Positions 2,054 to 19,706 of a stretch of 24,369 nt of DNA are shown here, piece by piece (within the stretch, counting starts at the first letter, position 1; each line of letters starts with the position of its first letter). Origin of the DNA: a virus. Location of the stretch: positions 1-24,369 of IMG/VR virus record IMGVR_UViG_3300029319_000495. One strand, written 5' to 3'. The notes under the pieces are model-generated. The model saw nothing but the letters and a program-made list of their open reading frames with translations, did not search any database and was not told the origin of the DNA. Both the position numbers and the translations under genes were made by a program.

Positions 2054-2869
2054 ATGAAATCACCGAACTGGTTACAGGGGTATGTCGAGGGCTTGGAGTT
2101 TCCTAGCCTGACAAAATATAGATCAGATTGCCCCGTGTGTGGTAAGAAGAACACCTTCAGCGTTACAGATGATGGACTCAACCGTATGTGGCACTGCTTC
2201 CACGCAGACTGCAACGTGTCAGGACGCACTGGTGTTACCTTGTCACGAGAACACGCTAAGAAGGCGTTGAGTCGGGCGCGGTCCTTGAAGACCGCCACGC
2301 CCTCCTCATCCCGTACTAGTAACACTTACGAGATACCGGATACATTTGTGAGTCTTTCTCGTAGTTTGGATGCAGAAACGTATGTCAAGCGAGTTAATGC
2401 GTACGATGCGTATCTTGCGGGACGAGTTGATATACGTTTTGATTTTAAACGAAACAGAGCAGTGTTTCTCGTGAAACGTGGTAATAAAGTTGTTGATGCA
2501 ATAGGGAGATCATTGAATGGACGGGCACCTAAATGGTATCGTTATGGAAATAATAAACACCCCTTCGTATGTGGTAGCGGAACCATCGCTATTCTTGTGG
2601 AAGATTGCGCTAGTGCTTGCGCTGTTTCTAAGCCCACGGTAGGGGTAGCTTTGATGGGTACTAATCTTCTAACAGAACACATAGAAACTTTACGAAAATT
2701 TCAAACCATATACGTTGCATTAGATAAAGACGCCACAGACAAGGCTGTTGACATGGTTAGAGTGTTAAATAATCATGTGTCAACAAAACTGATGATATTA
2801 AAAACTGATTTGAAAAACATGGAAAGGGACGAACGGGATGACTTCATACGATCCTATATCAATCGATAA
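2054..2869 (+). CDS. DNA primase (zinc finger plus TOPRIM)
   Basis: The 271-residue protein makes RNA primers for replication together with the helicase encoded next door. An N-terminal zinc ribbon is visible: C26 and C29 (CPVCGKKNTF) with C48 and C53 (WHCFHADC). A TOPRIM-like core follows, with the acidic motif E183-D184 (ILVEDCASACA) and the DxD pair D224-D226 (VALDKDATDK), the expected metal-binding residues. In T7, primase and helicase are one protein (gp4); here they are separate, and the helicase frame begins 32 bases before this stop. The ATG follows a GGGGGACGGAC site and a candidate promoter. The C-terminus (TDLKNMERDERDDFIRSYIN) may contact the helicase; that is inference. Confidence 0.88.
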   Translation: MKSPNWLQGYVEGLEFPSLTKYRSDCPVCGKKNTFSVTDDGLNRMWHCFHADCNVSGRTGVTLSREHAKKALSRARSLKTATPSSSRTSNTYEIPDTFVSLSRSLDAETYVKRVNAYDAYLAGRVDIRFDFKRNRAVFLVKRGNKVVDAIGRSLNGRAPKWYRYGNNKHPFVCGSGTIAILVEDCASACAVSKPTVGVALMGTNLLTEHIETLRKFQTIYVALDKDATDKAVDMVRVLNNHVSTKLMILKTDLKNMERDERDDFIRSYINR

Positions 2870-4067
2870 ACAGATATTAGGCTTCTGCCTCAACCACAAA
2901 TTCTTTTCGGAGGTACTGAACATCGTCAACCGCGATATGTTCAGCCGTGAGATGCGTGACGTGTTCGACGTTATCGTTCACTCGCACACGAAATACGAGA
3001 ACGACATCACAGTGGGTGAACTATCTGTGCTGTTCAATGACCGCAACCCAGCCATGCCTGACAGTTCGCGGGAGAAGTCACAAGAACTAATCCTTAGTCT
3101 AGACTGTGGTAACCCTGCCAACACAGAGATGCACATGGACATGGTGCGTAACTTCTGGCTGCGTGACCGTGCGCGAATCATCGGTGAGAAAGCCATAGAG
3201 ATATTTACAGGCGAGAGTGAAGATTTTGGTGAGTTACGGTCCTTGATTGAGGACATAGAGGATGGGCGTATGTCTGACCGTACAACGTACGAAAAGATTA
3301 CGGCAGACTTGGGTGAATTACTTGAGGATCACGGGGGAGAACCCGACTTCCCTTTTGAGTTTAACCTGATTAACGAACGTGTGGAGGGCATGGACAGAGG
3401 TAACTTGGGTATTATCTTTGCTCGTCCGGAGGTGGGCAAGACTACCTTCTGTTGTTTTCTTGCCGCTAGTTACATCAGGGCAGGATACAAAGTGGTATAC
3501 TGGGCTAACGAGGAACCAGCAGAACGCATCAAGTTACGCTTGATACAGTCGTACTTCGGCATAACTCGCAAAGAACTTGAGGACAACAAGCAGAAGTACA
3601 TACCACTTAGTCTAGAATTGATAGAACCTAATCTGGATGTGATGATGGCTATCGGCATGAGCATAGAAGAGGTGGACTCGTACGCCAAACTAAACAAGCC
3701 AGACATTATGTTCTGTGATCAGCTTGACAAATTTCGTGTGTCGGGTGAATACAACAGAGGTGACGAGCGACTCAAGGAGACTTACGTGAACGCACGAGAG
3801 ATAGCTAAACGTAACAAGTGCCTTGTGTGGGCTGTCAGTCAAGCAAGTAACGATGGGCATGATCGTCTGTTCATCGACTACAACATGATGGACAATTCGA
3901 AGACGGGCAAGGCTGGTGAAGCTGACATGATCATTGGTATAGGTAAGACGGGGGCGAGTGATGTTGACAATGTGGTAAGACACATTTGCATATCCAAGAA
4001 TAAAATAAACGGATGGCACGGGCCGATAGATGCTAACATCGACATACAACGAGGAGTGTACTACTGA
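2838..4067 (+). CDS. replicative DNA helicase, DnaB/gp4 type
   Basis: This 409-residue hexameric-type helicase would unwind the fork and stimulate the primase. Residues 1-110 resemble a DnaB N-terminal domain (MTSYDPISIDKQILGFCL onward). The RecA-like ATPase core carries a Walker A motif ARPEVGKTT with the lysine at 201, a Walker B strand PDIMFCDQLD with D294, and a WAVSQASND segment resembling the conserved H3/sensor region. The C-terminus has SKNKINGWHGP, close to the NR/KNR-G-type arginine-finger stretch of the DnaB family. The start overlaps the primase by 32 bases, and its stop shares one base with the next ATG (TGATG), so primase and helicase are probably translated in a coupled way. 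Confidence 0.9.
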   Translation: MTSYDPISIDKQILGFCLNHKFFSEVLNIVNRDMFSREMRDVFDVIVHSHTKYENDITVGELSVLFNDRNPAMPDSSREKSQELILSLDCGNPANTEMHMDMVRNFWLRDRARIIGEKAIEIFTGESEDFGELRSLIEDIEDGRMSDRTTYEKITADLGELLEDHGGEPDFPFEFNLINERVEGMDRGNLGIIFARPEVGKTTFCCFLAASYIRAGYKVVYWANEEPAERIKLRLIQSYFGITRKELEDNKQKYIPLSLELIEPNLDVMMAIGMSIEEVDSYAKLNKPDIMFCDQLDKFRVSGEYNRGDERLKETYVNAREIAKRNKCLVWAVSQASNDGHDRLFIDYNMMDNSKTGKAGEADMIIGIGKTGASDVDNVVRHICISKNKINGWHGPIDANIDIQRGVYY

Positions 4068-4216
4068 TGAGCAACCATCAAAACGAAGAGATCAAAGAGA
4101 GCCTGTACGATGAAGAGTATCATCGTCTAGAGAAGAAGTATCCGCAACTGAACGCAGAGTCTATAGCTACACTCGCACGATACTTCGCAACGAAGCGGTG
4201 GGAGGAGATGGAGTGA
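4067..4216 (+). CDS. small hypothetical protein (49 aa)
   Basis: A 49-codon frame starts at the ATG that shares a base with the helicase stop (TGATG) and ends at 4216, where the exonuclease GTG overlaps it as GTGA. GAGGAG lies upstream of the start within the helicase end. The product is charged and helical (MSNHQNEEIKESLYDEEYHR, then a Leu/Ala-rich helix ending TKRWEEME). The exact coupling at both ends supports it being translated. It may be a small partner of the replisome, but there is no sequence motif to say so. Confidence 0.62.
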   Translation: MSNHQNEEIKESLYDEEYHRLEKKYPQLNAESIATLARYFATKRWEEME

Positions 4217-4794
4217 ATGTCCTGACGTTCGATGTGGAGACAACCCACACACACAAACCATCGGGTGGCACGACTGCTCTACCTTATTTTGGTAATCGTT
4301 TAGTTTCAATAGGTTACAAGTGGTCTGACGAAGAGCAGGTGTTCTACGACTGTTACTATCACGAGACTGAGCCACCTACGCCAAGCGCGGCACAAGATTT
4401 TCAGACTGCGTTGAACTACGCAACTGTGCTTGTCGGACAAAACATAAAGTTTGATCTGCAGTGGATACGCGACTGTGGATTTGTATATGAGGGATTTATC
4501 TATGATACTATGGTTACAGAGTATGTTCTATCGAAAGCGCGGAGATGGCCTCTTGGACTTGCTGCTCTTGCAAAAAAGTATAACACGGTGCAAAAAGAGA
4601 AAGACCTTGTTCAGCCGTATTTGGACGAGGGTAAGACGTTTTATGAGATACCGTGGGAGATAATCAAAGAGTACGGCACATCTGATGTTGCGGCTACAGA
4701 AGAGATAGCGTACAAACAACTTGACGTGCTAGGCACAACATTCGAAGGAATCTACAGTGAGCAATTTGGTACCAACACTACGCCTATCGTTTGA
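4213..4794 (+). CDS. DnaQ-like 3'-5' exonuclease (separate proofreading domain of DNA polymerase)
   Basis: This 193-residue protein is the 3'-5' proofreading exonuclease that is normally fused to family A phage polymerases. All three exonuclease motifs are present: Exo I FDVETT near the start, Exo II VGQNIKFDLQWI in the middle, and Exo III YGTSDVAATEE near the end. The start chosen is the GTG at 4213, because GGAGGAG lies six bases upstream and the GTG overlaps the previous stop; a GTG at 4198 is also in frame. It ends at 4794, 38 bases inside the polymerase frame, which is offset by +1. A frameshift, a real split or an assembly error would each give this layout. The product presumably works with the polymerase below. 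Confidence 0.87.
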   Translation: MNVLTFDVETTHTHKPSGGTTALPYFGNRLVSIGYKWSDEEQVFYDCYYHETEPPTPSAAQDFQTALNYATVLVGQNIKFDLQWIRDCGFVYEGFIYDTMVTEYVLSKARRWPLGLAALAKKYNTVQKEKDLVQPYLDEGKTFYEIPWEIIKEYGTSDVAATEEIAYKQLDVLGTTFEGIYSEQFGTNTTPIV

Positions 4795-6295
4795 GATGGC
4801 TAACACACTGTCGCGTATCGAACGCAACGGACTGCGTGTAAATCTAGAGACACTCGCAGAGATAGAACGACAGTATCAGGATGAGTTAGATGCGTTAGAG
4901 TTGCGCCTCAACGATATGGCTCGTGAAGCTATGGGGGACACGCCCGTCAGTCTGACCAGTCCTGACGACAGGTCTATGCTCTTGTATTCTCGCAAGGTCA
5001 AAGACAAGAACACGTGGTCCGCTGTATTCAACTTGGGCATGGAGCAGCGTGGGGCTACGATGAAACCCAAGCAGCGCACCCGCATGACCAAGAAGGACTT
5101 CAAGGCACACGTAAGTAGTAAAACAGATATCATCTTCAAGACAGAGGGACAACGGTGTCCGACTTGTCTAGGCTTTGGTCGTGTGCGTCCCGTACGTAAA
5201 GACGGCACACCAAGTAAAGCGTTGCGTGTGTGTAGGCAGTGCGGCGGCAAGGGTGTGATCTATCACTCAACGGGAGAGGTTGCTGGGTTTAAGATCATAC
5301 CACGTAACGTGCGTGACGTTGCATCGGCAGGATTCAAGACGGACAAGGAAACCCTCGCTGAGATACGAGACACATTGAGTGGTCCTGCTCGTGAGTTCGC
5401 AGATGCGTACGTCAGATACAACGCACTCCGAATGTATTTAGGAACTTTTGTGGAGGGTATAAAAAACAATGTGGACGACAAGGGACTCATACATCCTGAA
5501 TTTATGCAGTGTGTTACGGCGACGGGTCGCCTTTCGTCTCGCAATCCTAACTTTCAAAATATGCCACGAGGTAACACATTTGAGATCAGGAAGGTTGTCG
5601 AGAGTCGCTTTCAAGGCGGTAAGATTATCGAAGGCGATTACTCGCAACTGGAGTTCAGGGTAGCGGGGTTTCTTGCAAGAGACAGTCAGGTGTATATCGA
5701 TGTAGGCGAGGGCACAGATGTGCATAGCTACACTGCCAGCGTGATAGGCTGTTCTCGTCAAGAAGCGAAGGCACACACCTTCAAACCACTCTACGGTGGC
5801 ACTACGGGCACAGAGGACCAACAACGCTACTACAGAGCCTTCAAGGATAAGTATGAGGGGGTAACCAACTGGCACGATTACCTCCAGCGAGAGGCCGTAG
5901 AAAAGCGCGTAATCACCCTTCCAAGTGGGAGGCAGTATGCTTTCCCTGATGCGCGGTGGACCAAGTACGGAACAGCTACATATCGCACCAACATCTGTAA
6001 CTACCCTGTACAGGGGTTCGCTACAGCGGATCTGTTACCTATCGCTCTTGTCGAACTCGACGGATTCTTCGCAGAAAATAACTTACAGTCTGTGATATGT
6101 AACACCGTGCACGATTCGATTGTTATCGATGCACACCCAAGTGAAATAGACATCTGTATCAAACTGATGCAAGAGGCTATGCTGTGTTTGCCACACGAAA
6201 CAAATCGTCGTTACAATGTAACTTATGATATGCCTGTCGGCATCGAAATAAAAATGGGCGATAATTGGCTTGACTTACAAGAAGTCGATTTGTAA
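4757..6295 (+). CDS. family A DNA polymerase, polymerase domain with DnaJ-like zinc insertion
   Basis: The 512-residue replicative polymerase contains motif A DYSQLEFRVAGFLA (catalytic D294), motif B R334-x3-K338-x3-F342-x3-Y346-G, and motif C NTVHDSIVID (H452, D453). Motif C has Ser454 where Pol I has Glu. The residue equivalent to E. coli Pol I position 762 is Phe, a state usually linked with lytic phages. Between an N-terminal linker and the palm sits a double zinc pair, CPTCLGFG (C134, C137) and CRQCGGKG (C159, C162), like the DnaJ central domain. As I recall, this is the feature reported for phage HMO-2011 polymerase. The start is a GTG with AAGGA upstream; an ATG at 4796 is an alternative. 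The proofreading domain is encoded in the preceding overlapping frame. Confidence 0.92.
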   Translation: MSNLVPTLRLSFEMANTLSRIERNGLRVNLETLAEIERQYQDELDALELRLNDMAREAMGDTPVSLTSPDDRSMLLYSRKVKDKNTWSAVFNLGMEQRGATMKPKQRTRMTKKDFKAHVSSKTDIIFKTEGQRCPTCLGFGRVRPVRKDGTPSKALRVCRQCGGKGVIYHSTGEVAGFKIIPRNVRDVASAGFKTDKETLAEIRDTLSGPAREFADAYVRYNALRMYLGTFVEGIKNNVDDKGLIHPEFMQCVTATGRLSSRNPNFQNMPRGNTFEIRKVVESRFQGGKIIEGDYSQLEFRVAGFLARDSQVYIDVGEGTDVHSYTASVIGCSRQEAKAHTFKPLYGGTTGTEDQQRYYRAFKDKYEGVTNWHDYLQREAVEKRVITLPSGRQYAFPDARWTKYGTATYRTNICNYPVQGFATADLLPIALVELDGFFAENNLQSVICNTVHDSIVIDAHPSEIDICIKLMQEAMLCLPHETNRRYNVTYDMPVGIEIKMGDNWLDLQEVDL

Positions 6296-12435: not shown

Positions 12436-15400
12436 TTAAGTTTCTCCTGCTGCAATTTTTCTAAGCCGTTCTTCTTCCGCTTCTCTTTGAGGAATCGCAA
12501 CTTCTTCCTCTACAAGTTCTGCCTGTGGCTTAGATACTTCTTCCCCAAGCAGTTGATTTAAGGTAGGCATCTCGCCGCCGCTGCGAATGATATCAGTAAC
12601 GAGGTAGTTTTCTATTCTTTTACCTAATAATTTCATATCTGCGCGAGACACAGGCTTGGGACTATTGAGCATCTCCCCAATTATTCTAGCTGCAACCTTA
12701 TCCCCTAAAGCTAATCCAATTAAAGTCTGTTGTTTTATCATAAGGGCACGAGCAGTAACTTCAGTGCCTACATATATAGGACTAACCATTCCACGTGCTA
12801 AGTTAAACACTCTAGAAAACTGACTTTCTATGGACATACCCCGTAGATCTGGGTCACTTCTAAAGCCTAGATTATTACCTATTGCTACATCTGCCCAGTC
12901 TGCAATATTCTTCATAAACTCGTAGTGTTCTTCTCCAAGAACAGCCCTCATTACAGGGGCATTCTTTTTGCCATATACATAGTCTATCAATACGCTGGCA
13001 TCTTGGACAACTTGAGTGACATCACTTGCGACTAACTCTGTTTTCTTTCCTGCTTTGGCATCGATACCACGAAGGTACATATACTTTAGTCCTGCCCTAA
13101 CTTCATCCTCATCCATGCCTTGACTGACAAATTTACCTATGTGTCTTTCAATACTTTCAGGAGTAGCGTTTTCAAACACCATATCAAAATACACGGAGGG
13201 CTTTGCCATGACGCCTTCAAAAGTTTCCATCTCTCTTAGGGTCTTGTTTAACTTATCTACATCCTGTTCTGCAGCCTTTCTTAGTGTCCCCTCGTTGCCT
13301 TTTATTCTTTCTACGACATCTTGATACTGCTGTCGGGTATTTGCATCGGTTCGTAAGAGATCGTCAAGTTTGATAGAAAAATGCTCTATCTCTGCGCGAA
13401 CAAGGTTTTTTCTACTAGGATTTCCATCTACGTTAGTCACTGGTATTGATAGTATTTTTTCTAGTTCAGTTACTCTTTTTGCCCTGCTTGTATCATAATC
13501 TGCACTCTGTTTTAATCGTTTCAATGCCCCTCTACGTGCCTTATCAGGGGCTTGTCCTGCTAATTGTTGTGCAACTTCCGTGGTGGCTTGCAATGTAGTT
13601 TGATAGGCTACGGCAACTTCTTTACCTATTAGAGTTTCTAACAAAGTGCCCACAGCGTCAGCAACCACTCTTTGCTTTCTATCGGTAAGATCAAAGCCAT
13701 ACCCCGGTGTGCCTCTGTTGTCAGTTATCATTCCTGCACCATAAAACATCATCAGTCTATTTTTTTCTACTTCTATCTGACCAAACAACTCTTCTTGCTT
13801 GTTCAAATCTGTTTCTTGAACAACTTTTCTCGCTAAAGTCGCTATATTTGTAAATGGTGCTAAAGGTTTGTTTCTGTCTATAGGATAATAATGCAGACCT
13901 TCTTTTCTATCTACAACATCAAAATCTATGTTTTCTTTTGTTCTATCTCTCCCTCTTATCACGTCCCCTGCGTATCTATTTTTATCCGTCTGCAAACCTA
14001 TGAGTTTTTTATGTGTGTCTCTTGCTTGTTCAATCAGAGGCAACAAGCCCTCATCTGTATCTCTATAGGCTTGATTAACAACTTCTGCAAATGATGGATC
14101 TAAATTGAGAGGGCTATCCTCTTTTACTTTTGCCTGTGCGTCCCTGAAAGACCTGTAGATCGCTTCTGTTTCTTCTACAGACGCTTTAAAGTATTTTAAC
14201 TCAGCTACGTTTTCTCCACTGTGTTCTGCCATCATAAGTGCAAGTTTAGTGTAGTTACGTTCTACGTTTCCATTCTTATCTTTATTCAATCTAACTTTCA
14301 AATTAGGAATAGCACTGTATATATCAAACAATCTGTCTATATCTTCAGAGTTTGGCATAGTATCGATTATGCCTCTCCTAGCTGCAGATTCAAATGCAAA
14401 TCGTGCATCCCTGCCTACACCTGATGCAAAGAAGCTAGACCCTCCCTTAAAAAAGTAAGAGAAAGGTTTATCGGCATATTCGTCGGTGAGGTTCATAAGT
14501 TTGGTAGCTACCGGAGCTAAGTCTATTGTTACGGCTTCTTCGGCACCTTCTGGAATATACTCATTTGCAGTGCGATAGGCAGCACTGACTCTTTGTCGTC
14601 TAGCTCCATACGAGATATCGAATATACGATCAGCGATTATGTTTGCCTCTTGATTTACTTGGCTTTCTGTTAATTGTCTAGAAAATTTACTTAGGGCACG
14701 AGAGTCTCTTCTTGCTGAATCAAGAATTTTTACAGCAGTGTCCTCTACTAGCCGTGCTTGCTCTATAGGCTCACGTATTTTTTCTTCGGATAGAAATGTT
14801 TTAAATCTTACTATTCTCTCTAGGGTTCTTTCATCTACAAAATCAAGATCGTTTGCGTAATCATCTATGATAGTCATCATTTCTTGTTTTTTAAGATTAA
14901 GCTTTATCATTCCTTCATCTGAAACTTGTCCTAGCTGCACAAGCATCTGTTGCAACGGCTCGTTGCTATCCAAATCTACTCCTGACTTTTCTAGAATACT
15001 AGCACTCAAAGTACGAAGAAGGGTGTCCATACCTTTATAATTAGCTTCTTCTGCTGCAAGAGCAGCCATTACCTCGTCGAGTTTACCTGCATCTCTTAAA
15101 TCTTGTTTAGATATTCTTCCTCCGCTACGTGCTTGTACTGCAATAAATGGGGCTAATCCTGTGGCATGAGCCAAAGAAAGATGAAGAGTTCCCATATTGT
15201 CAGCAATCTCTTGTTCAGTGAAAGCTAGATTTCCATCTGGAGCTTTGATGCCCCTCATAAAAGTTTCGATAGATTTCATAGTATTGTTGTACCGTTGCAA
15301 ACCTTCATGCACACGCACTTGAAACTCAGGCTTCAAAGATTGGTATATCTTTGACATGGTTTGATAGGCTTCTATAGATTTTTCTGTGACGGCAACTCCG

Positions 15401-17286
15401 TTAGCTTCCATAGCTGCACGAATAGACGACTCTTCTCCCTTTGCCAACATGCCGGGAGTTATAAATGGAATAAAGGTAGCGTGTTCTAGAGTTGTGGCAA
15501 AATCTGTAACACCTCCCAGCGTAGCTCTATCTAAGGCTTTCATACCTAGCATTGTTGTAGCTCGTGTTACTCCCGGAGCGAGTATAGGAGCAGTCAGCAT
15601 AGCTAAGATTTCTGCTACATCATTATCCATGCCTATCTTTTCCCAGCTAAGAATAGCGGGAGCATATCCCACAGCAGCGGAAATCATAATATCATCCGCA
15701 AGAAGTGATCGTTGATAGGGGTTGTTAAAGTTAGCAAAAATGCCTGTAGAACCGCCCGACTTTGCTTTGTAGGTATTGAATCCTTGCTTAAAGACTTTTA
15801 GATCCGCCCTTGCATTTTCTACTGCTTGAGGAGTGCTGTTTTTATCTTTTATAATTTTCTCAGCATCATCAATTTGTTTTTCATACATGGAGAGTGTGTC
15901 GAAGTGTTTATTCATTGTGGTGCCACGATGTATAGTTCCTTTTGAAACATACGTCGCACCTAATGTAGCACCTCCTAAAGCTAGTTGAACAAACTTATTT
16001 TGTGCTAGACGTGCCGCACCTGTCTGGCTGTTTTTCTTTATATCTTTATATACTTCAAAATCATCCATTTGAGAGTAACGAGTTGGATCATCTTTTCTAG
16101 CTTTATTTATCTTTCCAGCAATCGCTGTTCCCTTCGCTACACTCATGGCAGTTAGGCCCAACGTAAACGGTGCTTGCGTACCTCCAAACAGTATAGCTTT
16201 GTCACTAGATGATAGTTCTTGATATGCCGCGTCAATCAAATCGCTAACTAGTTCGGGAGGTAAAGGTCTATCTTTGTATTGAACGCTACCATCCTCATTT
16301 AAGACTTCCACAAGGTAGCCCTTCCCGTCCCTTCTATTCTCATCGAACTCTGGATCACCGGGTAACATGGCCTTATACACAGGATCTTGATGTAATTTCT
16401 TCCATTCATCAGCCCCATGTTTTTCTATAAATTTGTTTTTATACCAGCGATTAAAAGTCTTATTTGCAGAATCAAATATCTCTGATTTATTTAACAAGTC
16501 TTCATAAGGCTGTATAAATTCACCAAAGCCTTGCATGTTGCTTCCAAAACTTTCTACAAATTTTTCTTTATAACCTTTGTCCATTCCATTGGGTTCATCT
16601 TCAGCAAATTGTGCTGCTGTACCCGCCCACAATGCGTTTCCTATCATAGCAAAAAACGTGGGTAGTCTAGCAAAATCACCGGGTATAGCTTTGAACGCTC
16701 TGTTTGCTTCATCTACTAAATCGCCTGTGCTAAAAGACTCTAGTATAATTTCCTGTCCTTTGAACGGTACTTGAGAACTTTTTTCATCTAGCATTTTTGC
16801 TACATTTTGTCTGTTTCTTACCACCTCCATAACAATATCTTGTTGATCTTGAGGCAAGTTTTTAACGATCTGAGGTAGACGCACCTTCTCAAAATTAGGG
16901 CCAGACATAGGTACGGCTAACTTAAAAGGATCTTGTTGAGGCACTTGTTGATTTAATTTAAATCTGCCAAGTAGTTCTGCTTGTTTAGCCTTATTGTCTC
17001 TTATTAATTTTAAGGTATCCGGTGTTAAAATAAAGTCGCCAAGTTTCTTTACACCAAACTGATCTAGTTCAGCTTGAGTGGTGCTATTCATCATAGCGCG
17101 AAATGTGCTTTCCATTTCCGCGTCCGTTTTTGGGGCAAGTTGCCCCCGCTGTCTTGCTAGATCCTCTGCAGCAATCTTTGATAAGTCTACAGTAGCAACA
17201 GACGGGTCTACACCTGCAGACAACCTTTTTGGTATAGCCTGTAGCTTCTTATCAAAACCGTACATAGTATTTTGCTGTTCAGCCAT
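12436..17286 (-). CDS. very large putative internal virion (DNA ejection) protein, 1616 aa
   Basis: This is the largest gene in the window. The ATG at 17286 follows AGGAAG. The protein is mostly charged and helical with long predicted coiled regions. Some hydrophobic patches (PFTLGLTAMSVAKG, LALGGATLGATY, ISAAVGYAPAILSW, ATFIPFITPGMLA) lie in the first 700 residues and could insert into membranes. Size, position beside other large virion proteins, and lack of an enzyme signature fit the giant core/ejection proteins of podoviruses, functionally like T7 gp16, which form a channel across the cell envelope. I see no transglycosylase motif, so a murein-cutting role is not supported. The stop lies next to the 94-residue gene. 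Function is inferred from context. Confidence 0.72.
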   Translation of the reverse strand: MAEQQNTMYGFDKKLQAIPKRLSAGVDPSVATVDLSKIAAEDLARQRGQLAPKTDAEMESTFRAMMNSTTQAELDQFGVKKLGDFILTPDTLKLIRDNKAKQAELLGRFKLNQQVPQQDPFKLAVPMSGPNFEKVRLPQIVKNLPQDQQDIVMEVVRNRQNVAKMLDEKSSQVPFKGQEIILESFSTGDLVDEANRAFKAIPGDFARLPTFFAMIGNALWAGTAAQFAEDEPNGMDKGYKEKFVESFGSNMQGFGEFIQPYEDLLNKSEIFDSANKTFNRWYKNKFIEKHGADEWKKLHQDPVYKAMLPGDPEFDENRRDGKGYLVEVLNEDGSVQYKDRPLPPELVSDLIDAAYQELSSSDKAILFGGTQAPFTLGLTAMSVAKGTAIAGKINKARKDDPTRYSQMDDFEVYKDIKKNSQTGAARLAQNKFVQLALGGATLGATYVSKGTIHRGTTMNKHFDTLSMYEKQIDDAEKIIKDKNSTPQAVENARADLKVFKQGFNTYKAKSGGSTGIFANFNNPYQRSLLADDIMISAAVGYAPAILSWEKIGMDNDVAEILAMLTAPILAPGVTRATTMLGMKALDRATLGGVTDFATTLEHATFIPFITPGMLAKGEESSIRAAMEANGVAVTEKSIEAYQTMSKIYQSLKPEFQVRVHEGLQRYNNTMKSIETFMRGIKAPDGNLAFTEQEIADNMGTLHLSLAHATGLAPFIAVQARSGGRISKQDLRDAGKLDEVMAALAAEEANYKGMDTLLRTLSASILEKSGVDLDSNEPLQQMLVQLGQVSDEGMIKLNLKKQEMMTIIDDYANDLDFVDERTLERIVRFKTFLSEEKIREPIEQARLVEDTAVKILDSARRDSRALSKFSRQLTESQVNQEANIIADRIFDISYGARRQRVSAAYRTANEYIPEGAEEAVTIDLAPVATKLMNLTDEYADKPFSYFFKGGSSFFASGVGRDARFAFESAARRGIIDTMPNSEDIDRLFDIYSAIPNLKVRLNKDKNGNVERNYTKLALMMAEHSGENVAELKYFKASVEETEAIYRSFRDAQAKVKEDSPLNLDPSFAEVVNQAYRDTDEGLLPLIEQARDTHKKLIGLQTDKNRYAGDVIRGRDRTKENIDFDVVDRKEGLHYYPIDRNKPLAPFTNIATLARKVVQETDLNKQEELFGQIEVEKNRLMMFYGAGMITDNRGTPGYGFDLTDRKQRVVADAVGTLLETLIGKEVAVAYQTTLQATTEVAQQLAGQAPDKARRGALKRLKQSADYDTSRAKRVTELEKILSIPVTNVDGNPSRKNLVRAEIEHFSIKLDDLLRTDANTRQQYQDVVERIKGNEGTLRKAAEQDVDKLNKTLREMETFEGVMAKPSVYFDMVFENATPESIERHIGKFVSQGMDEDEVRAGLKYMYLRGIDAKAGKKTELVASDVTQVVQDASVLIDYVYGKKNAPVMRAVLGEEHYEFMKNIADWADVAIGNNLGFRSDPDLRGMSIESQFSRVFNLARGMVSPIYVGTEVTARALMIKQQTLIGLALGDKVAARIIGEMLNSPKPVSRADMKLLGKRIENYLVTDIIRSGGEMPTLNQLLGEEVSKPQAELVEEEVAIPQREAEEERLRKIAAGET

Positions 17287-17300
17287 GCTTACTTCCTACC

Positions 17301-19706
17301 TTACATTACGGGCACTAGATATACTTTTCCGCCTATTTCTTGTCTCTTGTATTGAGTAGAGTCGTCATCATCTATGATGATATTACCGTTTGGTAGAGAT
17401 TTTGTTCGACCAAAATAATCTGATTCTAACATTTGTGGCTGCACTTCTTGTTGTGCTCGACCACCCCCCGGTTGATCAGGTTCTAATTCTAGAAGAGGTT
17501 CGGTCCTAGCTTGTCCGCTAAAATCTCCGGACGTAATATCGTCAACATTCGGTGAAGGCGCAGTCTGTTGATTTTGTTGAGGCGCAGTCTGTTGATTTTG
17601 TTGAGGCGCAGTCTGTTGATTTTGTTGAGGCGTAATCTTTTTAGGAGGTTCAACCTGTACAGTCGAAGGTGTAGTATACGAACCAGCCTCTTCCGAATCG
17701 ACTACTGTTACAGTGCCGTCGGAATCGACTTTATAGTATACAGGGTTACCATCGCCATCTATTCTCATAATGTATGTATCTTCAGTTTCCGGATTAAATC
17801 CGACAGCCGCTGCACCTGTCGTTGTAGTGATTAAACCGTTTTCATCCCTAGATACTATTAAATCCTCTGCTGTTGGTAACACAGGCGCAGCATCTTGTGG
17901 TTGTATTTCTGTTTCGGGTTGTAGAGTTTGATTATAAGAGCGAACAACTGCATCTCGTACCTGCAAAGCTCTTATGCGTTCTTGAAGTTCTACGTCAAAT
18001 CCTCTTTGCCCCTTAGAAAGTATAAGCATGTTTAAATTTGATAAATTTTCTCTTTGAAATCTTATAGTGTCTCTAACTATATCGATAGAACGAACTTCTC
18101 CTACTTTAGTCCCTGCTCCACCCGTCAATTTTTGGAGGTTACGTTGTAAGTCTCCATCAGATAATCTACCTGATGAGTCTTCAGCACGAGCCATGTCGGC
18201 TGCAATGATAAAAGCTAGAGTGTCTCTCTTTGCTCTCTCTCCGGTGCCGCTTGCTCTTAAAGCCTCAAGTCGTGCCTGTATGATTGCTTTTTCATCTTGT
18301 TCGTCGGGACCAAAACTTCCTAAAATATCCATAAGTTGTTCAACTTGACCTGATGGCCCAAAGAATCCTTCGATAAGATTAACGGCACTATCCAAAAGAG
18401 TTCCTTTTACAGTGCTGATTTTTGTTCCCACTATTGTGGCATATATGGCAAGTTTTTTATCTGCAGACTCCGCTGCTTGTAATCTTCTTTGAAACCCTTC
18501 AAAAGAACTTCCATACACTGCCTTGAACGCTTCTTCTTTATTTTTTCCAACCCTAAACATGTCCGGATTTTTTACATTTACGGCAAGCAAGTTTCGTTCA
18601 TTCTCAGACAAAATAGAACCAGTCAAACCCTCAATTAAAAGAATTTGTTGTTTACCATCTACTACATTTTGTTCTAAATATTCTCCTACCTTTACAGCGT
18701 TATTTGTGAAGTCTATTGCCATAGATCCCTTTGTTGAACCCTGTCTGGTAATATCGTACAGATTTGCAAGGTGTCCCACAGCATCTAAAAATTGTTCCCT
18801 GTTTTCATGTTTTTGAGATAGATTGTACATAAACAGATTTGTTGACACCCCTTGCGACTGAGCAAGATCGTCTACAACTTTTAAGTCAATATCTCGTTTT
18901 ATAAAGGTGTCCTTGTACAAAATTCCATACTTACCTTTAAATTCTTCTTTCGTCAGCATGTCAAACATCGAGCCTGCACTCCCGACACGTGGAGAAACCA
19001 AAAGCATTTCTGATGCCTTTACGTCATTATCAGCTACTGATTCTAACACGTTTCCAATAAGCAAATCTTGTTCTCTATCTGTATTTAAACCTAGATAATT
19101 AGAAAGATATTCGTAGTTTCTAATTGCATTCAAATCGATTGCAAGAGGATCTCCCTGTTCCGGTCCTTTTTGTAGGGAGCGTATGAGATTACCTGCGTTA
19201 GTTTTAACAAGCTTTTTAAGTTCTGTGTAGTTACCTGAAGTGGGATCAAATTCCTTTTCAAACGCTGCCTTTTTTTCTTCTGTGTTTATTTGATCCGCTA
19301 TAGCATCGAAGAATATCGTAGCTTTAGCTGATGGATCATCCTGCTGTTTAAAGTATAGTTTCGGAACAGGCAAAAGATACGTGCCTATATTGAGATGATT
19401 TGTGTCACCAATTTCGTTGATTAGTCCCTGTACTTTTGACACATCTATATCTATGTCGTCTGTCTTTGTGCCCCAGATATCTATAGGTTTTCTATTTTTT
19501 GCTTCTGTTCGAGCGGATGCTATCAGTTCAGTAAGTTTATTGCCAGCAGCGGCATTGTAGTCTTCTCCACCCTCAAGCTGTGCCTTGAGAAGCATATCCT
19601 CTACGGCGTCAATGCGCTGATCTTCACCTAATCTTTTTGCTTCTTCTTTTGCTATATTGTTTTGGAAGCCTTGAACAAGACCCATAGCCAGTGATACGCC
19701 TATCAT
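17301..19706 (-). CDS. large putative internal virion protein, 801 aa
   Basis: The ATG at 19706 follows GAGGCGTAAA, one base after the previous stop. The N-terminus has a short hydrophobic stretch (MIGVSLAMGLVQGF), then a long acidic helical region up to about residue 600. From about residue 600 the protein changes to a low-complexity Pro/Gln/Asn/Thr-rich part holding three identical eight-residue units (APQQNQQT register), followed by an acidic Gly/Gln tail. A short region with MRIDGDGNPVYYKVDSDG may bind ions. With the 1616-residue protein it probably makes the internal core ejected ahead of the DNA, analogous to T7 gp14-gp16; that is inferred from context. No enzymatic motif is seen. Confidence 0.68.
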   Translation of the reverse strand: MIGVSLAMGLVQGFQNNIAKEEAKRLGEDQRIDAVEDMLLKAQLEGGEDYNAAAGNKLTELIASARTEAKNRKPIDIWGTKTDDIDIDVSKVQGLINEIGDTNHLNIGTYLLPVPKLYFKQQDDPSAKATIFFDAIADQINTEEKKAAFEKEFDPTSGNYTELKKLVKTNAGNLIRSLQKGPEQGDPLAIDLNAIRNYEYLSNYLGLNTDREQDLLIGNVLESVADNDVKASEMLLVSPRVGSAGSMFDMLTKEEFKGKYGILYKDTFIKRDIDLKVVDDLAQSQGVSTNLFMYNLSQKHENREQFLDAVGHLANLYDITRQGSTKGSMAIDFTNNAVKVGEYLEQNVVDGKQQILLIEGLTGSILSENERNLLAVNVKNPDMFRVGKNKEEAFKAVYGSSFEGFQRRLQAAESADKKLAIYATIVGTKISTVKGTLLDSAVNLIEGFFGPSGQVEQLMDILGSFGPDEQDEKAIIQARLEALRASGTGERAKRDTLAFIIAADMARAEDSSGRLSDGDLQRNLQKLTGGAGTKVGEVRSIDIVRDTIRFQRENLSNLNMLILSKGQRGFDVELQERIRALQVRDAVVRSYNQTLQPETEIQPQDAAPVLPTAEDLIVSRDENGLITTTTGAAAVGFNPETEDTYIMRIDGDGNPVYYKVDSDGTVTVVDSEEAGSYTTPSTVQVEPPKKITPQQNQQTAPQQNQQTAPQQNQQTAPSPNVDDITSGDFSGQARTEPLLELEPDQPGGGRAQQEVQPQMLESDYFGRTKSLPNGNIIIDDDDSTQYKRQEIGGKVYLVPVM
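17557..17628 (-). repeat. three perfect 24-bp tandem repeats in the 801-aa gene
   Basis: Three head-to-tail identical 24-base units lie at 17557-17580, 17581-17604 and 17605-17628. They encode TAPQQNQQ three times in frame, and a degenerate partial unit (TPQQNQQ) precedes them in protein order. Perfect identity at DNA level suggests recent expansion by slippage or unequal recombination. The encoded stretch is likely a flexible linker near the C-terminus. Confidence 0.95.

Follow-up and report, generated by a model that had tools for sequence, protein, structure and literature searches.

In the viral stretch analysed here (IMG/VR record IMGVR_UViG_3300029319_000495, positions 1 to 24,369; 24,369 nucleotides, hereafter the window), the exonuclease and polymerase domains of a family A DNA polymerase lie in different reading frames, raising the question of whether this reflects a sequencing error, a programmed ribosomal frameshift or two separately translated genes. 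The upstream ORF extends in frame 1 from GTG 4213 (or 4198) to the TGA at 4792–4794 (4213–4794, + strand, 193 aa) and matched Pfam PF01612 (E = 4.8e-12), whilst the downstream ORF extends in frame 2 from GTG 4757 to the TAA at 6293–6295 (4757–6295, + strand, 512 aa) and matched PF00476 (E = 1.8e-48), with PHROGs in agreement for both. Together with active-site residues and structural models, these matches identify a 3'-5' proofreading exonuclease (exo) and a family A DNA polymerase without an exonuclease domain (pol). Exo translation probably begins at GTG 4213, which forms a GTGA overlap with a preceding 49-aa ORF and aligns with the ATG starts of relatives. The frame relation of pol to exo is +1, and the genes overlap by 38 nt including the stop, from the pol GTG to the exo TGA (4757–4794, + strand); this TGA takes its T from the third position of a pol TTT codon (most relatives have CTT here) and its GA from the GAG that follows. 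A preliminary description of the locus had recorded separate ORFs with a 38-base overlap and a +1 shift, exo motifs I–III all in the upstream frame and a pol frame open from 4733, and these observations were borne out (motifs D7/E9, N77/D81 and Y154/D158; upstream in-frame stop TAG 4730–4732). The AAGGA that it had noted upstream of GTG 4757 is part of a Shine-Dalgarno-like GAAGGA (4744–4749, + strand), with a predicted anti-SD duplex energy of −5.7 kcal/mol compared to a mean of −1.8 for ATG/GTG codons inside that ORF. Within pol lies a DnaJ-like zinc-binding insert (5156–5245, + strand) with four invariant cysteines (C134xxC137 ... C159xxC162).

Gene order in the window is primase (2054–2869, + strand; phrog_47, E = 5.9e-19), DnaB-like replicative helicase (2838–4067, + strand; PF03796, phrog_19), the 49-aa ORF (4067–4216, + strand), exo and pol, forming one tightly overlapping replication operon in which the 49-aa ORF joins the helicase stop through a TGATG overlap and the exo start through the GTGA. 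Upstream of the operon is a small, free-standing HNH endonuclease gene (943–1233, − strand). Two very large virion-side proteins are encoded on the − strand (12436–17286, 1616 aa; 17301–19706, 801 aa), the smaller with tandem QQNQQTAP repeats towards its C-terminus. Searches of PHROGs, Pfam and annotated phage records matched neither, even though the terminase and coat proteins of phages with the split polymerase are HMO-2011-like; HMO-2011-type TerL and coat genes were not seen in the window itself, a 24-kb fragment.

Relatives were drawn from the IMG/VR contigs reached by our queries, the sample being enlarged with second and third protein queries and by a search for AKAHTFKPLYGG as a DNA pattern. 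Domain profiles run against every ORF identified 159 split loci, 129 fused loci and 37 loci in which no exo was found. Three contigs from other metagenomes (L001–L003) share 98% polymerase identity with the window; the junction bases of L001 are identical to the window's, and only a few nearby bases set L002 and L003 apart. The preliminary description had proposed looking for the same split in related metagenome contigs, with uninterrupted frames in close relatives counting against it; instead, exo and pol were in different frames in L001–L003 and in every relative at 71–98% identity that contained both domains. It had also raised the alternative of a one-base sequencing or assembly indel in a normal fused gene. 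Such an indel would be in keeping with the fused polymerases of the isolated phages of the group, and one defect of this kind apparently exists elsewhere, in L158, where a single break falls mid-exonuclease (L158:3815–4100) in a locus placed among fused HTVC033P relatives. This is probably an isolated assembly or sequencing defect, and L158 was the only one of the 159 split loci to resemble one. For the window, the recurrence of the same junction in independent, 98%-identical contigs, the retention of the split in all two-domain relatives and the low dN/dS of both ORFs exclude this explanation, which we regard as vanishingly improbable. As judged from these independent contigs, the split is a real, inherited feature and not a sequencing error.

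Both halves have retained the residues expected of working enzymes. The exo residues D7, E9, N77, D81, Y154 and D158 (DEDD-Y) were invariant in 46 split exos, whilst in 42 polymerases motif A (D294/E299), motif B (R334/K338/F342/Y346, in which F342 is the counterpart of E. coli Pol I Phe762), motif C (H452/D453) and the zinc-binding C134, C137, C159 and C162 were invariant, and G139/G141/G164/G166 were invariant or nearly so. Comparison of the window with L005, L030 and L037 gave dN of ~0.12–0.15 at dS of ~0.7–1.6 across exo and pol, with a pol dN of 0.19 against L037 and an exo dN of 0 at a dS of 0.17 against L003; by these substitution rates, both halves are shown to be under purifying selection. 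In AlphaFold models of the single chains, each of the two proteins forms a complete domain. The exo model is compact (mean pLDDT 91.4), ends in a last helix at residues 177–181 and found its best PDB folds in the exonuclease domain of Pol I / Klenow. The pol model (mean pLDDT 88.7, pTM 0.78) begins its first helix from residue 5 and matches Pol I large fragments (Foldseek). Exo residues after ~182 are those encoded in the overlap; this tail looks disordered in the model (pLDDT 48–59), and exo tails differ in length and sequence among split loci. As modelled, the cut is at a domain boundary, after the final exonuclease helix and ahead of the one that opens the polymerase, making two independently folding proteins plausible.

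The closest characterized polymerases are those of HMO-2011-type phages, of which the window pol shares 37–47% identity over 97–100% of its length with HMO-2011, CRP-1, CRP-2, CRP-3 and HTVC033P (tblastn). A hallmark of these polymerases is a partial DnaJ domain containing a pair of CXXCXGXG repeats (PMC9038755), and the window pol has the same insert with both repeats. The primase-helicase-polymerase order is likewise common to both, and of ten long contigs with the split, nine carried an HMO-2011-type TerL (55–59% identity) and nine the coat protein. All cultured members examined carry a single exo-DnaJ-pol protein, in agreement with the preliminary description: the polymerases of HMO-2011, CRP-1, CRP-3, CRP-212, CRP-235, CRP-738 and HTVC033P are each one in-frame CDS, and in CRP-2, CRP-207, CRP-345 and CRP-603 both domains fall in one frame by tblastn coordinates. 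In the split loci, by contrast, there are two genes, overlapping in the window, and the DnaJ insert does not lie between exo and pol of one protein, exo being a separate ORF throughout.

Phylogenetic analyses placed the split polymerases in one clade. A FastTree analysis of 158 representatives gave this clade full support, and an IQ-TREE analysis (mixture model, with T7, tf and phiEco32 as the root) gave it UFBoot/SH-aLRT support of 100/99 and recovered it in all 200 bootstrap trees examined. The root of the IQ-TREE tree is long (T7 end branch 3.4), and the clade was recovered without it in the FastTree tree. In the rooted tree the split clade branches from within the fused HMO-2011-type polymerases, such that a single fission accounts for all of its members, and one gene fission of a fused ancestor within the HMO-2011-type phages is the simplest history. 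Its carriers are uncultured and for the most part marine, and make up a large group of phages. Searches of bacterial genomes returned no usable relative (one Planctomycete MAG match at 32%) and hence no clue to the hosts of the clade.

Separate exonuclease and polymerase genes are not in themselves new, having been described in all LUZ24-group phages and phiEco32 (PMC3517423) and in Kuravirus relatives (PMC9965538), and were evident in the LUZ24, tf and phiEco32 records that we examined directly. The preliminary description's view of the split as a departure from the usual phage layout therefore holds for HMO-2011-type phages but not for phages generally. The separation is of the same kind: LUZ24, PaP3 and tf have an exo gene directly after the primase/helicase and a family A pol, as in the split clade, and phiEco32/Kuravirus-like phages also combine a pol without an exo domain with a separate 3'-5' exonuclease subunit. 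This likeness, together with the position of exo beside the helicase gene in both groups, could be taken to mean that the two-gene layout was inherited in common with LUZ24/phiEco32-like phages rather than newly arisen. Unlike in the split clade, however, exo and pol are ~2 kb apart in LUZ24, PaP3 and tf, with 8–9 genes between them, and ~8 kb apart in phiEco32/Kuravirus-like phages. Moreover, the C..C.G motifs of the DnaJ insert are missing from the polymerases of tf and phiEco32, which fall on a separate long branch of the tree, indicating that the HMO-type split arose independently; given also the nesting of the split clade among fused polymerases, we consider shared inheritance very improbable. 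Two further marine phages, MEP401 and MEP402, which infect OM43, have a polymerase in two ORFs, but there the polymerase domain itself is interrupted, around a small ORF, the authors suspecting an intron (PMC10580990), and its N-terminal part remains joined to exo, unlike in the split clade. No earlier report of an HMO-type exo/pol split was found in the literature searched, which covered few subscription journals and preprints.

Junctions within the clade were varied. The basal split lineages have simple stop-start overlaps, ATGA in L308, L318, L231 and L243 and TTGA in L209 and L235, whilst the junction of L273 has a 14-nt offset. In L253 (1081–2417) and the homologous stretch of L288, ~1.2 kb with several small ORFs separates exo from pol; part of the inserted DNA is common to both loci and the remainder differs. 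In L250 (4419–4859) a 146-aa ORF lies between the two genes in stop-start contact with both, and a DNA search of phage records with this insert gave no match. With its mixture of shared and differing DNA, the exo-pol gap of L253 and L288 looks like a site of gene turnover. Where the overlap carries an LSxE motif (99 junctions), the codon whose last base begins the exo TGA was CTT in 61, TTT in 24, CTG in 9 and TTG in 5, ending in T in 85 of the 99; elsewhere in these genes CTT accounts for only 20% of Leu codons. This bias suggests that the exo stop is maintained by selection, although the sequences, being related, do not count as independent observations. The stop can nevertheless shift downstream: in L076, L079, L173 and their relatives it lies deeper in pol, at a 59-nt offset, owing to a Leu codon at the usual stop that is CTG, not CTT.

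How pol is translated can be judged from the same junctions. In 114 distinct junctions, the pol start was ATG (n = 99) or GTG (n = 15), with a GGAG, GAGG or AGGA ahead of it in 104, and the mean anti-SD duplex energy was −6.7 kcal/mol compared to −1.8 at internal ATG/GTG codons, a contrast somewhat inflated because the start was taken to be whichever ATG/GTG scored best within the permitted region. The same best-candidate procedure applied to the fused clade near the same place, and hence subject to the same bias, gave a far weaker mean of −2.9 kcal/mol. In L220 and L303 the assigned pol start has a weaker SD. Of 72 internal candidates near the junction in fused relatives, 18 were at −5 or stronger; an internal start as the forerunner of the fission is suggestive only, given the mean of −2.9 kcal/mol.

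The alternative is that programmed +1 ribosomal frameshifting joins the frames into one exo-pol protein, either as the only product or in addition to a separate exo; the preliminary description had also considered a frameshift. A +1 change within a conserved overlap containing a conserved UGA bears a superficial likeness to RF2-type frameshifting, and the final codon and stop of exo, most often GCU UGA, GUU UGA or CUU UGA, could be read in the same light. Against this, the frame offset is not constant, being +1 in 153 and −1 in 6 of the 159 split loci, and since both signs occur no fixed slip could serve. Nor was a slippery site common to all: across 105 +1 overlaps, the commonest exo-phased heptamer occurred in 57. 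In L250, L253 and L288, the intervening genes make it impossible for a slip to join exo and pol, and in six loci (L034, L050, L058, L061, L065 and L067) a pol-frame stop two codons ahead of the pol start leaves only 35 nt in which to slip. Slippage at the UGA itself would lose the pol-frame residues LVPTLRLSF. The variable offset, intervening genes and absence of a shared slippery site effectively exclude frameshifting, to which we give only a few chances in a hundred. With frameshift and indel both set aside and start and SD conserved, translation of pol from its own GTG, as originally proposed for the window, is supported, and the production of two proteins is strongly supported by these sequence patterns.

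We consider it highly likely that the split clade encodes a two-subunit family A replicative polymerase derived from one ancestral gene fission within HMO-2011-type phages. In the proposed mechanism, an ancestral single protein (exo, DnaJ zinc finger, pol) would have been cut between the exo and pol helices. Ribosomes translating exo would pass over the pol ribosome-binding site and start, and pol would be made from its own ATG or GTG by a coupled or independent start, as start and SD conservation suggest, such that one message yields two proteins through overlapping, SD-driven starts. The products would then most likely function as a polymerase and its proofreading subunit, either through non-covalent re-association or in trans, a reading that draws on the kept active sites and the never-lost linkage of the genes. 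Proofreading activity in trans is likewise inferred from invariant active sites and from an exo that is never lost or moved.

A less favoured possibility accepts the split as real but holds that exo no longer serves pol, being a moonlighting or decaying nuclease. Physical separation would allow exo to be lost or re-used, and the variable length and sequence of exo tails could be seen as a sign of this. Yet no complete junction lacked exo; the 37 pol loci without a detected exo were all at or near a contig end. Exo stays upstream of pol even where genes have been inserted between them, and the invariant DEDD-Y residues and low dN/dS argue against decay. We therefore consider this reading unlikely and favour the two-subunit polymerase. 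Also rather unlikely is an extension of the two-subunit reading, in which the free exo would be a dissociable, separately dosed proofreading subunit, with start and stop signals in the overlap setting the exo:pol ratio; if true, the split clade would tune replication fidelity or speed through that ratio.

The split also bears on how these phages are counted. A census of HMO-2011-type phages kept DNA polymerases of 540–779 aa with at least 80% coverage (PMC9038755), required a polymerase match for genomes and states that exo, DnaJ and pol form one protein in all members (PMC9038755). We applied these limits to our own profile from six isolates, without rerunning the census pipeline: none of 114 split pols (504–524 aa, coverage 0.73–0.75) passed either limit, whereas all 122 fused pols passed. 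The census filters would thus have discarded the split polymerases, and length and coverage filters of this kind, which drop every split member tested, are a practical blind spot. In one pattern-based sample limited to these two lineages, split loci numbered 51 and fused loci 37 among those that were complete. The clade and its relatives span a graded series, from fused genes through stop-start overlaps and longer overlaps to gene-filled gaps, in which the fission of a replicative enzyme can be traced step by step. Ultimately, split and fused enzymes within one family offer a direct test of the value of a covalent linkage between proofreading and polymerisation.
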